Assembly (NCBI GenBank): GCA_013151495.1
Contig: JAADIE010000079.1
Coordinates: 1-45,044 of the forward strand
Source: Nitrospirota bacterium
GTDB lineage: Bacteria > Nitrospirota > Thermodesulfovibrionia > Thermodesulfovibrionales > JdFR-85
Length of the DNA: 45,044 nt
Direction: 5' to 3'
Shown: piece by piece, positions 17,448 to 43,645 of the stretch
Position numbering within the stretch: the first letter of the stretch is position 1
Layout of the letters: every line of letters starts with the position of its first letter
Translations under genes and position numbers: made by a program
Notes under the pieces: generated by a model
Databases searched by the model: none
What the model was told of the DNA's origin: nothing
What the model saw: only the letters and a program-made list of their open reading frames with translations

Positions 17448-18230
17448 CTAACCAAAGAGCTCCTTTATCTTCCTGCCTATATCATCTGCCCTCATCAGGG
17501 CAGTGCCTATAAGTATCGCATCAACCCTGTGGGAGGCAATGAACTCTACATCAGCCCTTGTGTTAATCCCGCTTTCACTTACCACCACCCTGTCCGACGG
17601 GATATCCTTGAGCAACTCAATGGTTTTATTCAGGTCTATCTCAAGGGTCTTCAGGTTACGGTTGTTTATGCCTATAATTGGAAAATCAAGAAGTAATGCT
17701 GTATCAAGCTCTTTCCAGTGATGAACCTCAAAGAGCACCCCAAGGCCAAGCTCAGAGCTGAGATGAAAAAGCTCCTCAGCCTGGGCCCTTGAAAGCATGG
17801 CCGCAATCAATAGCACCGCATCTGCACCCTCGGCCCTTGCCTCATAGATCTGGTATTCATCAAAGATAAAGTCCTTCCTGAGTAGTGGCACCTGAACAGT
17901 CTGTCTTACCTGCCTGAGATAATCGAGACTTCCCTGAAAATAATCCTCCTCAGTCAGTACCGAAATACAAGCGGCACCATAATCTTGATAGATCTGTGCT
18001 ATCTCTACTGGAGAAAAGTCCTCCCTGATAAGCCCCTTCGATGGAGAGGCCCTTTTTATCTCACAGATGTATCTTATTGGTGTGCTCTCGGGTCTTTTTA
18101 TTGCCCCAAGAAAGTTCCTTGGTTCAGGGCTGTCAAGGGCCTTTGCCCTTACCTCCGACAAGGAAACCCGGGCCCTGGCTTCTTCGAGCCTTAACTTACG
18201 CCTTTGAAATATTTCCCTTAGAATATCCAT
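17448..18230 (-). CDS. trpC: Indole-3-glycerol phosphate synthase
   Basis: TIM-barrel enzyme of 260 residues that closes the ring of CdRP to indole-3-glycerol phosphate in tryptophan synthesis. Recognisable are ICEIKRASPSKG (about 55-66), the phosphate and substrate regions VLTEEDYFQGSLDYL and LLRKDFIFDEYQIYEA, and GINNRNLKTLEID. It stands alone, without other trp genes in the window. It is transcribed away from yicC across a 62-bp gap and converges on fhs. The start ATG at 18230 is preceded by GGTGG. Confidence 0.96.
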   Translation of the reverse strand: MDILREIFQRRKLRLEEARARVSLSEVRAKALDSPEPRNFLGAIKRPESTPIRYICEIKRASPSKGLIREDFSPVEIAQIYQDYGAACISVLTEEDYFQGSLDYLRQVRQTVQVPLLRKDFIFDEYQIYEARAEGADAVLLIAAMLSRAQAEELFHLSSELGLGVLFEVHHWKELDTALLLDFPIIGINNRNLKTLEIDLNKTIELLKDIPSDRVVVSESGINTRADVEFIASHRVDAILIGTALMRADDIGRKIKELFG

Positions 18231-18254
18231 ATTGCCACCATATATTTTAGAATT

Positions 18255-18285
18255 TTAACATTTTTCTTTGATTTTCTGATATAAT
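18255..18285 (+). promoter_or_regulatory. Promoter of yicC, -10 box 7 nt from the start codon
   Basis: TTAACA at 18255-18260, a 19-bp spacer and TGA-TATAAT (extended -10, hexamer 18280-18285) form a strong promoter. Only 7 nt separate the -10 from the ATG at 18293, so the expected transcription start falls at or next to the start codon, implying a leaderless mRNA. Confidence 0.72.
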
Positions 18286-18292
18286 CAATTCT

Positions 18293-19144
18293 ATGAAAAT
18301 TCAAAGTATGACCGGCTATGGCGAGGCCGAAGAGGGTGGCTTCAAGGTCGAGGTCAAATCTGTTAATCATCGGTTTCTTGATATCCATTTCAGAATGCCC
18401 TCCGTGCTTAACCCTCACGAATTGGAGCTAAAGAAGTTAGTTAAAGAGCGCTTTGCAAGAGGCCGTATTGATATAACCATATCCTTTACAGAAAACACCG
18501 ATATACAACTGAACATAAATCAGCAGGCAGCCCGGACTTTACTGGATAGCCTTGGCCAGATATGTCAGGCCCTGAAGCTTGAGAGCCGTCCTCAACTGGA
18601 TCATCTATTCTGGTTTCGTGATATTGTGTTTAAACAAACACCCGAGTTCAGGCCTGAAGAACTCTTTACCACCTTTCAAAAGGCCCTTGACGCCCTTGAG
18701 GAGATGAGGACAAAAGAGGGTGCCTTTTTGCTAAACAGTATCAACCAAATAGTAGAAAACATAGAGGGCCTTGTGGACAGAATCAGGAAAATTTCAGAAA
18801 ACTCAGCTTCAGGCCGATATGAGAATATAAAGCAAAAGGTTCAGGCTCTGGTGGAAAACATAGAAATAGATGAACAACGACTTCTTCAGGAGATCGCCTT
18901 CCTGGCTGACAGGGTAGACATCTCAGAGGAGATCACCAGGATCAAGAGCCATCTTAATCAGATGCGCAGCATCCTTTCAGAGGGTGGTCCTGTTGGTAGA
19001 AAACTGGACTTCTTGCTTCAGGAGCTAAACAGGGAGACAAACACCATAGGCTCAAAAAGCATAGACTATCAGGTTTCGGAACTGGTAATTAATGTTAAAA
19101 CAGAAATAGAAAAGATCAGAGAGCAGATCCAGAATCTGCAATAG
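18293..19144 (+). CDS. yicC: YicC/YloC family endoribonuclease-like protein
   Basis: A 283-residue member of the YicC/YloC family, whose E. coli member is an endoribonuclease acting on structured RNA. The conserved N-terminus SMTGYGEA (residues 5-12) fixes the start at the ATG of 18293. The C-terminal DUF1732 part contains VGRKLDFLLQELNRETNTIG near 240-259. No Shine-Dalgarno precedes the start, and the promoter lies directly upstream. It opens the conserved run yicC-remA-gmk-rpoZ-coaBC, shared with Firmicutes and many other phyla. Confidence 0.93.
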   Translation: MKIQSMTGYGEAEEGGFKVEVKSVNHRFLDIHFRMPSVLNPHELELKKLVKERFARGRIDITISFTENTDIQLNINQQAARTLLDSLGQICQALKLESRPQLDHLFWFRDIVFKQTPEFRPEELFTTFQKALDALEEMRTKEGAFLLNSINQIVENIEGLVDRIRKISENSASGRYENIKQKVQALVENIEIDEQRLLQEIAFLADRVDISEEITRIKSHLNQMRSILSEGGPVGRKLDFLLQELNRETNTIGSKSIDYQVSELVINVKTEIEKIREQIQNLQ

Positions 19145-19200: not shown

Positions 19201-19491
19201 ATGAAAAGGGATACTGCACCAGTGCTTGTTAACATTGGTTTTGGCAACATGGTCTCGGCCTCCCATGTAATTGCAATAGTTACACCTGGGTCTGCACCAA
19301 TGAAGCGCCTGAGAGATGAGGCAAAAAAGAGAGGTAAACTGGTCGATGCCACCGAGGGTCGCAGGACCAGATCGATAATCGTTACAGATAGCGACCATAT
19401 AATTCTCTCTGCCCTTCAGCCAGAAACCATTACTCAGAGATTTATAGGAAAGGAGGATGCCCACCACGAAGAAAAGGATCTCGAAGAATAA
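19201..19491 (+). CDS. remA: RemA-like regulator (DUF370)
   Basis: A 96-residue RemA/DUF370 protein. In Bacillus RemA is a ring-forming DNA-binding regulator of matrix and osmoprotection genes. Typical parts are [18 protein letters not shown] (about 10-27), a basic segment with [17 protein letters not shown] (about 31-47) and the [18 protein letters not shown] region. The acidic C-terminal tail overlaps gmk by 35 nt. The ribosome site AGGAGG lies 4 nt before the ATG, and a hairpin stands just upstream. Its role outside Firmicutes is not established. Confidence 0.9.
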
Positions 19492-20095
19492 GGGAAATAT
19501 CTTTATAATATCAGCTCCATCTGGTGCAGGGAAAACCACCCTATGCAGGATGATACTTGAGCAGCTGGATGATATCGAGTTTTCCATCTCTTATACCACA
19601 AGACCGCCCCGTCCGGGTGAGGTAGATGGTCGAGATTATTATTTTGTATCAAAAGATGAATTCATGCAGATGGTTCAGGAGGAGGAGTTCATCGAGTGGG
19701 CAGAGGTGCATGGCAATCTTTATGGCACATCCAAAAAGAGACTCCTTGAGAGGGTCTCAAAGGGTATCGATGTGCTTTTAGATATCGACACCCAGGGAGC
19801 TGCGCAGATAAAGGAAAAGGGGCTTGAGGCTGTTTATATATTTATATTACCGCCATCCCTTTCAGTTCTCCGGGAAAGGCTGGAGGGAAGGGCCTCAGAT
19901 TCAGAGGATGTGATTAACAGAAGGCTTAAAAAGGCCGTAGAAGAGATAGCTGCCTATAAAATGTACAATTATGTTATTATAAATGATAAACTTGATGAGG
20001 CCTTTGAACTACTGAAGGCCGTGGTGCTTTCAAAGCGGGTGGCTATTGAAAGTATTGACACAGACTGGATTGAAGAGACCTTTTTAAAGGGATAA
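19457..20095 (+). CDS. gmk: Guanylate kinase
   Basis: GMP kinase of 212 residues, forming GDP with ATP. The P-loop [11 protein letters not shown] is at about residues 19-29. The GMP-binding region [20 protein letters not shown] and the lid with [10 protein letters not shown] are present. It begins inside remA, whose last 35 nt it overlaps, with AGGA 7 nt upstream of the ATG. In the operon it precedes rpoZ, a pairing seen in most bacteria, often linked to ppGpp metabolism; no spoT/rel gene is in the window. Confidence 0.96.
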
Positions 20096-20124: not shown

Positions 20125-20508
20125 ATGGATAGCATGGATATAATCTCTTTGCCGGTGGAGTTTGACAGCCAGAAGATTGATGGACGCTTCAGGCTTGTCA
20201 ATATAGCTGCTCAGAGGGCAAAGGAACTCGCCTCTGGGGCTGAGCCCAAGATCCAGACAAAGGCTAAAAAGGTTACCACCATTGCCATTCAGGAGGCTAT
20301 TGCCAACAAGATCGAGTTCCTCACCGGTGATGAGGCTGCAAGGGCAAAGGAACAATCCAAAAAGCTTGCCTTCAGAAAGCTACTTGAAGACCGTAAAAGG
20401 GAACTCGATGCCGAGGAGCTTTCAGAATTAGAAAAGGACCTTAATGTCTACATCAAGGAAAAAGAAGAGTCCATTACAGCAGATGAACTCTTCGACTCTG
20501 AAGAATAA
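20125..20508 (+). CDS. rpoZ: RNA polymerase omega subunit
   Basis: Omega subunit, 127 residues, assisting folding and assembly of the beta-prime subunit. The core GRFRLVNIAAQRAKEL at about residues 20-35 and the TTIAIQEAIANKI helix are characteristic. The C-terminal acidic, Lys/Glu-rich helical extension is longer than in many bacteria. A strong AAAGGAGG precedes the gene. Its end overlaps coaBC. Confidence 0.92.
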   Translation: MDSMDIISLPVEFDSQKIDGRFRLVNIAAQRAKELASGAEPKIQTKAKKVTTIAIQEAIANKIEFLTGDEAARAKEQSKKLAFRKLLEDRKRELDAEELSELEKDLNVYIKEKEESITADELFDSEE

Positions 20509-36186: not shown

Positions 36187-36849
36187 TTATTTAAAGCAGT
36201 TTTGTTCAATGTTCTTTAAAATCAAATCAATGGTCTGCTGTAAGTCGATATTTGTGGTATCAATATAAATTGCATCATCCGCCTTCTTTAAAGGGGCAAT
36301 ATCTCTGGAAGAGTCCCTCCTGTCACGTTCGATCACATCCTTAAGGGCCTCCTCTTCGGTAATCTCCTTACCCATCTGTCTGAGCTGTAGATACCTTCTT
36401 TTAGCCCTTTCCTCGGTTGAGGCATCAAGAAAAAACTTACAATCAGCCTCTGGAAAGACAACTGTTCCCATATCACGCCCTTCTGCAACGGTATTATGAT
36501 GTTTTGGGAAATCACGCTGCAGTCCAAGCAGAAACTCCCTCACAACCGGCCTTGCTGAAAACACTGATGAATAATGTCCGATCTCGGGTGTACGTATCTC
36601 TTTAGATACATCTTCTCCGTTTAGATACACATGGCCTGAGTTAAAAACTATCTGCACATCCTTTAACACAACTCTTAAATCCTCATCAGAAATGCCCTCG
36701 TCAAACCCCTTTCTTCTAAGGTAAAGGGCCACTGCCCTGTAAAGGGCGCCTGTGTCAAGGTATTCAAAACCAAGCCTCTTTGCTATCTCCTTTGCAACTG
36801 TACTTTTGCCTGCACCGGATGGGCCATCAATAGTTATGATCTTTTTCAT
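36187..36849 (-). CDS. cmk: Cytidylate kinase
   Basis: CMP/dCMP kinase of 220 residues. The P-loop ITIDGPSGAGKSTVA is at about residues 5-19. The CMP-binding region (FEYLDTGALYRAVALY) and the lid with RDRRDSSRDIAPLKKADDAI follow. It is the first gene of the minus-strand operon cmk-plsC-ispH-rpsA-sppA-ihfB-petA-petB. No Shine-Dalgarno precedes the ATG, and a TATAAT box ends 8 nt before it. Confidence 0.96.
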   Translation of the reverse strand: MKKIITIDGPSGAGKSTVAKEIAKRLGFEYLDTGALYRAVALYLRRKGFDEGISDEDLRVVLKDVQIVFNSGHVYLNGEDVSKEIRTPEIGHYSSVFSARPVVREFLLGLQRDFPKHHNTVAEGRDMGTVVFPEADCKFFLDASTEERAKRRYLQLRQMGKEITEEEALKDVIERDRRDSSRDIAPLKKADDAIYIDTTNIDLQQTIDLILKNIEQNCFK

Positions 36850-36857
36850 AACTTATT

Positions 36858-36863
36858 ATTATA
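36858..36863 (-). promoter_or_regulatory. -10 box of cmk, 8 nt from the start codon
   Basis: On the minus strand TATAAT lies 8 nt before the cmk ATG at 36849. No good -35 is found at 16-19 bp, so the promoter call rests on the perfect -10 and the absence of any ribosome binding site. The transcript would have almost no leader. Confidence 0.45.
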
Positions 36864-42171: not shown

Positions 42172-43608
42172 CTACAAATAAGGTGAAAGCAGAAAGGCCA
42201 TTCCGTCTCTGATTTTAAGCATAAGGGGACGCTTTCTGATGGCAAAGAGATCAAGCCTCTTGGCAGCAGCTATTTTTTTCTCCACAATCTGTAGAAGTTC
42301 TGAAGCAAGTCCAGTATCGTAGCATTCAATATTGAACTCGAAATTCAGCCTGAAACTCCTTGCATCCCAGTTGCCAGAGCCTATCAAGACCCAAAAGTCA
42401 TCCACTATCATAATTTTTGAATGATCAAAGGGCGGCGGGGTCAGCCAGATTCTGCAATTTTCATTGATTATCTGCTCAAGTATATTAAAGGATGCCCACT
42501 GTACCACGGGTATATTGTTTTTCTCAGGCAATACTATATCAATATGCACTCCCCTTAAAGCAGCCAGATTCAATGCTGAAATAAGATTCTCCTCTGGAAG
42601 AAAATAAGGGGTAACTATCTTGATAGATTTTCTTGCAACAGTTAATGCACTATGAAAGGTCAGAAGCTGTTTTTCAAAGTCCTCGTCAGGACCATCCGGT
42701 ATACCTCTGGCAAGGGCATTGCCGACAGGCTCTATTTCTGGAAACCAGCGCTTCCCCTTTAATACCTCACCTGTACAAAAGTACCAGTCCTCAGCAAAGA
42801 CCTGCTGCATATGCCTTACTACCGGGCCTTCCACAAGAAAGTGAATATCCTTTACCGGATAGGCCGGTTTCAGCCCGAGCATATGCCCTTCTCTTATGTT
42901 CATACCACCAGTAAAGCCCTTTTTACCATCAATTACCAGTATCTTACGATGATTGCGTAAGTTCACAAAGGGAAGCCAGGTAGGGGTAAGGGTGGGTAAA
43001 AATCTAACCGCCTTTATGCCAAGTCTTTTAAGCTTTCTCGTAATTGGTGGGAAGCTGTATCTTGTGCCCATATCATCAATAATTATTCGTATATCCACTC
43101 CTCTTTCTTTTGCATTCTTCAGTGCCCCAAGGAACATCTCACCAGCCCTGTCGTTGTCAAAGATATAGGTTGAAAGATTAATGGTATCTCTGGCTTCCTC
43201 AATGGCTTTGAGCATTGCCGGATAGGCATTGTCACCATCCTCAAGAGGGACTATCCTATTACCAGGTAAAAGGGGTAGATCTGTGATCTTGTCAATCATT
43301 CTTGAGAGTTGCTTAAACTGGGCAGATGGTCTTTGGAAGTCTACATACACATAGGCATCGGGTAGATCGAACTTCTTTGATACTCCTGCGATGGTGCTTC
43401 TTAAAATCCTTGCCTTTCTTCTAATCCTGTTTATCCCAAAGGTTATGTACAGAAAACCACCAAGCACCGGAACAAGCCAAATTATTCCTATCCAGGCAAA
43501 GGCAGAACGGGCATTCTTTTTTGTAAGAAGCACATGTACCGATGCAACCAGGGAAATGGCCAGAGTTAAAACACCGGCGATATGAGGCCAGATATGTTCG
43601 ATCATCAT
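42172..43608 (-). CDS. cls: Cardiolipin synthase (phospholipase D family)
   Basis: Membrane enzyme of 478 residues joining phosphatidylglycerol units into cardiolipin. Two N-terminal membrane helices (about 8-28 and 38-58) precede two HKD motifs: HRKILVIDGKKGFTGGMNI (about 216) and HSKIMIVDDFWVLIGSGN (about 396). PxxxxF-type regions between them fit the family. The start is one of two adjacent ATGs (43608 or 43605). A good promoter lies 8 nt upstream and no Shine-Dalgarno is present. arsC follows in the same direction after 52 nt. Confidence 0.94.
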   Translation of the reverse strand: MMIEHIWPHIAGVLTLAISLVASVHVLLTKKNARSAFAWIGIIWLVPVLGGFLYITFGINRIRRKARILRSTIAGVSKKFDLPDAYVYVDFQRPSAQFKQLSRMIDKITDLPLLPGNRIVPLEDGDNAYPAMLKAIEEARDTINLSTYIFDNDRAGEMFLGALKNAKERGVDIRIIIDDMGTRYSFPPITRKLKRLGIKAVRFLPTLTPTWLPFVNLRNHRKILVIDGKKGFTGGMNIREGHMLGLKPAYPVKDIHFLVEGPVVRHMQQVFAEDWYFCTGEVLKGKRWFPEIEPVGNALARGIPDGPDEDFEKQLLTFHSALTVARKSIKIVTPYFLPEENLISALNLAALRGVHIDIVLPEKNNIPVVQWASFNILEQIINENCRIWLTPPPFDHSKIMIVDDFWVLIGSGNWDARSFRLNFEFNIECYDTGLASELLQIVEKKIAAAKRLDLFAIRKRPLMLKIRDGMAFLLSPYL

Positions 43609-43616
43609 ACACTGTT

Positions 43617-43645
43617 ATTATAACCGGGATTGTAGGTCTTCACAA
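43617..43645 (-). promoter_or_regulatory. Promoter of cls, -10 box 8 nt from the start codon
   Basis: On the minus strand TTGTGA (43645-43640), a 17-bp spacer and TATAAT (43622-43617) form a canonical promoter. The -10 box ends 8 nt before the first cls ATG, so the transcript would start at or within two bases of the start codon. Confidence 0.7.

Follow-up and report, generated by a model that had tools for sequence, protein, structure and literature searches.

Three genes in the window (the whole stretch of 45,044 nt analysed here, which is the complete contig C111 of its own genome, G000; 1.73 Mb in 128 contigs, 95.6% complete) are very probably leaderless, judging from the position of their promoters: yicC, cmk and cls each have a TATAAT box 7 or 8 nt before an ATG start. 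We infer this status from the box itself, its spacing, the missing Shine-Dalgarno site, the fixed starts, the enrichment of the layout and its conservation. The sequence-only reading had proposed the three as a leaderless set, and this proposal is supported by the spacing, an excess of the same layout in the genome, the exclusive use of ATG, a bias toward operon-leading genes and conservation in the sister genome (G001).

The yicC gene (18293..19144, plus strand) is a reading frame with the Pfam YicC-like N and C domains. Its putative -10 element, TATAAT (18280..18285, plus strand), ends 7 nt before the ATG at 18293, with its first T 13 nt from that ATG, and is directly preceded by TGA (18277..18279, plus strand), an extended -10 (TGn) element; this is the arrangement that had been described from the sequence. 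The TTAACA at 18255..18260 (plus strand) is a weak candidate -35 element with a 19-nt spacer, and a good TTGA[C/T] -35 was found at the matching position in 9 of the 33 yicC sequences compared below. In the yicC frame, the upstream stop TGA comes after 7 codons, with no ATG, GTG or TTG between stop and start, and ATG 18293 is the sole possible start from this stop to the conserved SMTGYG. The corresponding upstream in-frame stop is TAA after 1 codon for cmk and TAA after 2 codons for cls, again with no ATG, GTG or TTG between. The starts of all three genes are independently fixed, because in-frame stops lie directly upstream and the N-terminus is conserved in relatives; a misplaced start codon was ruled out on these grounds. 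None of the motifs AGGA, GGAG and GAGG was found upstream of the yicC, cmk or cls starts, in agreement with the absence of a Shine-Dalgarno site asserted for yicC. Translation from the following in-frame ATG of yicC (+15) by way of a Shine-Dalgarno site was ruled out as well, as no such site exists there either.

Both cmk (36187..36849, minus strand; Pfam Cytidylate_kin) and cls (42172..43608, minus strand; PLD-type cardiolipin synthase-like, Pfam PLDc_2, PLDc and PLDc_N) are predicted to be leaderless, and their counterparts in the sister genome have retained the layout. Their putative -10 elements, TATAAT at 36858..36863 for cmk and at 43617..43622 for cls (both minus strand), are separated by 8 nt from the ATG at 36849 and at 43608, respectively, with the first T 14 nt from the ATG in both. 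The sequence-only reading had given them the same layout as yicC; this stood for the TATAAT 8 nt before the ATG and the missing Shine-Dalgarno site, but not for the extension of the box, which is preceded by GGT in both genes, so that among the three a TGn extended -10 is confined to yicC. The strong Shine-Dalgarno sites attributed to the neighbours fhs, efp and rpoZ could be read directly upstream of all three starts (aaggaggttgtt-ATG for fhs, aggaggtag-TTGATG for efp and aaaggaggtcggtccga-ATG for rpoZ).

The yicC gene is followed by a remA-like gene (19201..19491, plus strand; Pfam RemA-like), gmk (19457..20095, plus strand; Pfam Guanylate_kin), which has ggaaaggagg ahead of its ATG, and rpoZ (20125..20508, plus strand; Pfam RNA_pol_Rpb6). 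Sigma-70-type promoters start transcription ~6-8 nt after the -10 box, and the leaderless route of translation has an intact 70S ribosome or an fMet-tRNA-loaded subunit bind a 5'-terminal AUG. Under the proposed mechanism, the housekeeping sigma factor would bind the consensus -10 and the RNA would start at the A of the ATG or up to 2 nt ahead of it, since a sigma-70-type start at that distance from the box falls within ~2 nt of the ATG. This would place AUG at the very 5' end of the mRNA, where it could be recognised via the leaderless route, and the downstream operon members gmk and rpoZ would be read from their own Shine-Dalgarno sites, which are present in the sequence.

Of the 45 genes called as ORFs in the window, 3 carry TATAAT 5-8 nt ahead of their first start codon. 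When the 60 nt upstream were dinucleotide-shuffled 500 times, the mean was 0.142 such genes, and none of the 500 shuffles reached 3. The same layout was counted in a 448-kb sample of the own genome, taken in two parts, in which ORFs of at least 80 aa were called mechanically with the first ATG, GTG or TTG as the start, and expected counts were derived from TATAAT at distances of 12-60 nt. Over both parts, TATAAT at 5-8 nt from the start was found in 19 of 437 genes, compared with 3.10 expected (p ~1e-9). The first part, which includes the window, contributed 16 of 279 genes (1.63 expected), or 13 of 234 (1.22 expected) when the window is left out, and the second, fresh part, with contigs picked by number, contributed 3 of 158 (1.47 expected; one of the three, a frame of 109 aa, is doubtful). 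The first part is richer than the genome average, with 42 TATAATN{5,8}ATG strings against 27.4 predicted from the whole-genome count. The genome-wide excess that had been suggested as a check was thus found, yet the fresh part alone is not significant (p = 0.18), and the raw whole-genome count of TATAAT-ATG pairs, 169 at 5-8 nt versus 140 at 11-14 nt, is borderline (p = 0.056), being weakened because ATG triplets that are not starts dilute it. A looser whole-genome promoter pattern with an ATG 3-30 nt after it had 34 matches versus 4 for the reversed control, the commonest gaps to the ATG being 6, 7 and 11 nt with 4 matches each. The strict TTGAC full-promoter pattern occurred 5 times at 5-8 nt and 6 times at 11-14 nt, in line with many boxes having TGn instead (8 of the 19 genes). 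Looser -10 motifs gave a weaker contrast, and all of these counts refer to TATAAT boxes, degenerate -10 boxes lying outside the estimate. In 200 kb of E. coli K-12, the same script returned 0 of 187 genes with the TATAAT layout.

The borderline raw counts and the fresh part taken alone would leave some room for a pattern in which TATAAT came to stand near ATG by chance, out of AT-rich intergenic DNA. Against this, each of the other 19 arrangements of the A3T3 letters gave at most 5 matches in the 437 genes versus 19 for TATAAT, the shuffles did not reproduce the window, the layout is conserved in the sister genome and an excess extends over the order. A chance-only origin of the pattern in the window and genome is therefore unlikely, and chance from AT-rich sequence, which the letter permutations, the shuffles and the conservation all contradict, deserves practically no weight as an account of yicC, cmk and cls. 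It is quite improbable, but less so, that the promoters are real and the RNA starts a few nucleotides upstream, giving a leader of 1-7 nt and near-leaderless translation. The gap between TATAAT and ATG is 8 nt in cmk and cls and 9 nt in the cls gene of the sister genome, and six TTGAC promoters of the own genome lie 11-14 nt before an ATG, with TATAATTAGTGGTTAAAATG the same in both genomes, all of which would suit such short leaders; the distance histogram of the own genome speaks against them, with its peak at 5-8 nt and only 0-2 cases at each distance between 9 and 19 nt.

The 19 genes share further properties that speak for leaderless initiation. All of them start with ATG (19/19), compared with 294 of the 418 other genes, and 15 of the 17 that could be scored lead an operon, compared with 155 of 375 others. 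A Shine-Dalgarno site was found in 0 of the 19 versus 182 of the 418 others, a difference that is partly forced because TATAAT occupies those positions. The list presumably includes Der, MurJ, SMC, an Rrf2-type and a TetR-type regulator, whose N-termini were judged by eye. The idea of a whole set of operon-leading genes with this layout is thereby upheld, and from the two sample parts its extent is best put as a few percent of own-genome genes, nearly all of them apparently operon-leading.

In the sister genome, the gap between TATAAT and the ATG is 8 nt for yicC, 8 nt for cmk and 9 nt for cls, and the YicC protein is only 68% identical between the two genomes. A broader comparison covered 33 yicC sequences: the own gene, 29 other loci (from the best 30 of 59 matching genomes among 61 searched) and three of nine named loci. 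A TTGA[C/T] -35 together with a -10 box that ends 5-10 nt ahead of a start was found in 9 of the 33 (shuffle mean 0.02), from families f2, f8, f10, f11 and f13 and two MAGs titled Nitrospirae, and 2 further sequences have TATAAT at 5-9 nt (shuffle mean 0.15), giving the layout in 11 of 33. The remaining 22, including most of the own family, fit neither promoter rule, which suggests that the state has been gained and lost. For cmk (30 loci) and cls (17 loci), read by eye, few sequences beyond the sister species have a -10 box at such a distance, and most distant relatives among these loci lack the layout.

Leadered translation without a Shine-Dalgarno site is common in some phyla. If this held here, the TATAAT would be secondary or inactive and a farther promoter would give a leadered mRNA without a Shine-Dalgarno site, translated for example with S1 from an unstructured AT-rich leader, and the AT-rich intergenic space and the phyla with such translation discussed in PMC5397173 would favour it. 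We consider it very improbable: the starts of trpC (17448..18230, minus strand; Pfam IGPS), the divergent neighbour, and yicC are only 62 bp apart, which leaves little room, and a distant promoter leaves unexplained the 5-8 nt spacing, the ATG-only starts, the operon-leading bias and the full -35/-10 promoters at such spacing in 9 of 33 yicC sequences.

A class of genes with a promoter adjoining the ATG appears to exist throughout the order. Samples of 200 kb from each of eight further genomes of the order, 1516 genes in all, contain 35 genes with TATAAT at 5-9 nt versus 9.6 expected, although singly these genomes are weak (p 0.0015 to 0.1). Raw counts over 41 genomes of the order are 8961 at 5-8 nt versus 6874 at 11-14 nt, with an excess in 40 of the 41; the one without is G030 (301 versus 328). 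The full promoter occurs 530 times at 5-8 nt before ATG versus 240 times at 11-14 nt in 121 genomes of the order, of which 89 have more at 5-8 nt, 18 are equal and 14 have less, and the reversed-pattern control gave 32 at each distance. The 11-14 nt control is conservative, because some promoters at that distance seem genuine and would leave only a very short leader. Two genomes of the same class (G081 and G171) stand outside the order sum, and 17 of the 148 phylum genomes, from small families, were not pooled. Elsewhere in the phylum, a raw excess was found in the pooled families f18 (488 versus 344), f19 (986 versus 700), f23 (818 versus 623) and f24 (351 versus 278), and raw counts showed none in f17 (6 genomes, 1520 versus 1550) and f22 (10 genomes, 1770 versus 1764). 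The full promoter is found 24 versus 16 times in the 10 genomes of f22, so this family is not fully empty. The excess therefore differs among groups of a single phylum: the own order, f18, f19, f23 and f24 have it, and the raw counts of f17 and f22 lack it.

The arrangement itself is already known in bacteria. Zheng 2011 (PMC3160421) describes TA-led genes as a leaderless signal, in 207 of 953 bacterial genomes listed by group. The genes described here resemble them in the TANNNT/TATAAT box, the missing Shine-Dalgarno site, their occurrence alongside Shine-Dalgarno-led genes and, as in some of those genomes, a TG before the box, whose first T lies ~12 bp upstream of the start there and 13-14 nt upstream here. 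For yicC, cmk and cls the features of TA-led genes were found in the -10 distance, for which ~10-13 bp upstream of the start codon was taken as the rule, the lack of a Shine-Dalgarno site, the fixed start, the ATG and, with the caveats given above, the genome excess. The words Nitrospira and Thermodesulfovibrio are absent from the main text of Zheng 2011. In Deinococcus-Thermus (PMC12340547), a -10 box that precedes the ORF by 6-7 bp is, according to experiments reported there, the promoter -10 of leaderless mRNAs; the box likewise adjoins the ORF in our case. About one third of D. radiodurans genes are of this kind, with the consensus TACACT (PMC12340547), compared with a few percent here and TATAAT, partly with TGn. 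StartLink (PMC9581028) quotes 21.6% of bacterial species with leaderless transcription, and the GeneMarkS-2 leaderless class quoted there likewise mixes leaderless and Shine-Dalgarno genes in a genome; no group-level entry for a Nitrospirota lineage was seen in the parts of that text available to us. Within the part of PMC10783764 available to us, Thermodesulfovibrionia is mentioned for the anti-Shine-Dalgarno type only. Among the papers listed by full-text searches, none reports leaderless genes in Nitrospirota, Nitrospirae, Nitrospira or Thermodesulfovibrio. With the present genes, a further lineage, probably Nitrospirota as judged from named relatives at 41-43% identity, would join those in which a minority of genes is regularly leaderless. 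Such starts will be placed wrongly by gene finders that assume a Shine-Dalgarno site, and the promoters concerned could be read directly from the sequence adjoining the ATG.

The yicC promoter lies in a 48-bp block between trpC and yicC (18242..18289), which ends 3 nt before the yicC ATG and is identical throughout in the own and sister genomes, and the surrounding 3.2 kb are 69% identical. At 69% per base, 48 consecutive matches are expected at ~2 in 100 million. A repeated element was ruled out, as the block is present in a single copy in each of the two genomes, and a search of 59 other genomes found no copy within 3 mismatches. The identity could possibly reflect an operator or a shared two-way promoter. 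It is conceivable, if rather unlikely, that selection has maintained leaderless initiation as a means of controlling certain operons in the order, and that in the yicC operon (with remA, gmk and rpoZ) a 48-bp bidirectional promoter frozen between two species ties together the transcription start, translation without a leader and perhaps the site of a regulator. If this were true, the RNase-like YicC, the operon's first protein, would be made when conditions favour leaderless over Shine-Dalgarno initiation.

Several other promoters with an adjoining or nearby ATG were observed. Some promoters of the own and sister genomes that lie 11-14 nt before an ATG would have leaders of only ~4-7 nt, which could not accommodate a Shine-Dalgarno site, and one of these promoters is shared by both. 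The -35 and -10 of a TetR-like gene with the leaderless layout (L148 12331; G000:C19:32294-32333) flank a palindrome of the GACTGGTCAGTC type, and spacers resembling this one are found in G001, G002, G007, G008, G027, G038, G047, G156 and G158, as if an autoregulator's operator were placed inside a leaderless promoter. At G000:C98:20735-20773, the nearly constant promoter AATTTGGGAATATAATACCAAATATG has TTTGG/CCAAA inverted arms around its -10, with the ATG directly after; it is present in seven genomes of the family (G000, G003, G004, G005, G009, G012 and G014) and has the look of a conserved operator lying across a leaderless start. On G027:C1, five near-identical promoter-plus-ATG strings (153638, 216880, 1322682, 1708060 and 1857629), also present in G154, probably belong to a multicopy element in which the leaderless layout precedes the first gene.
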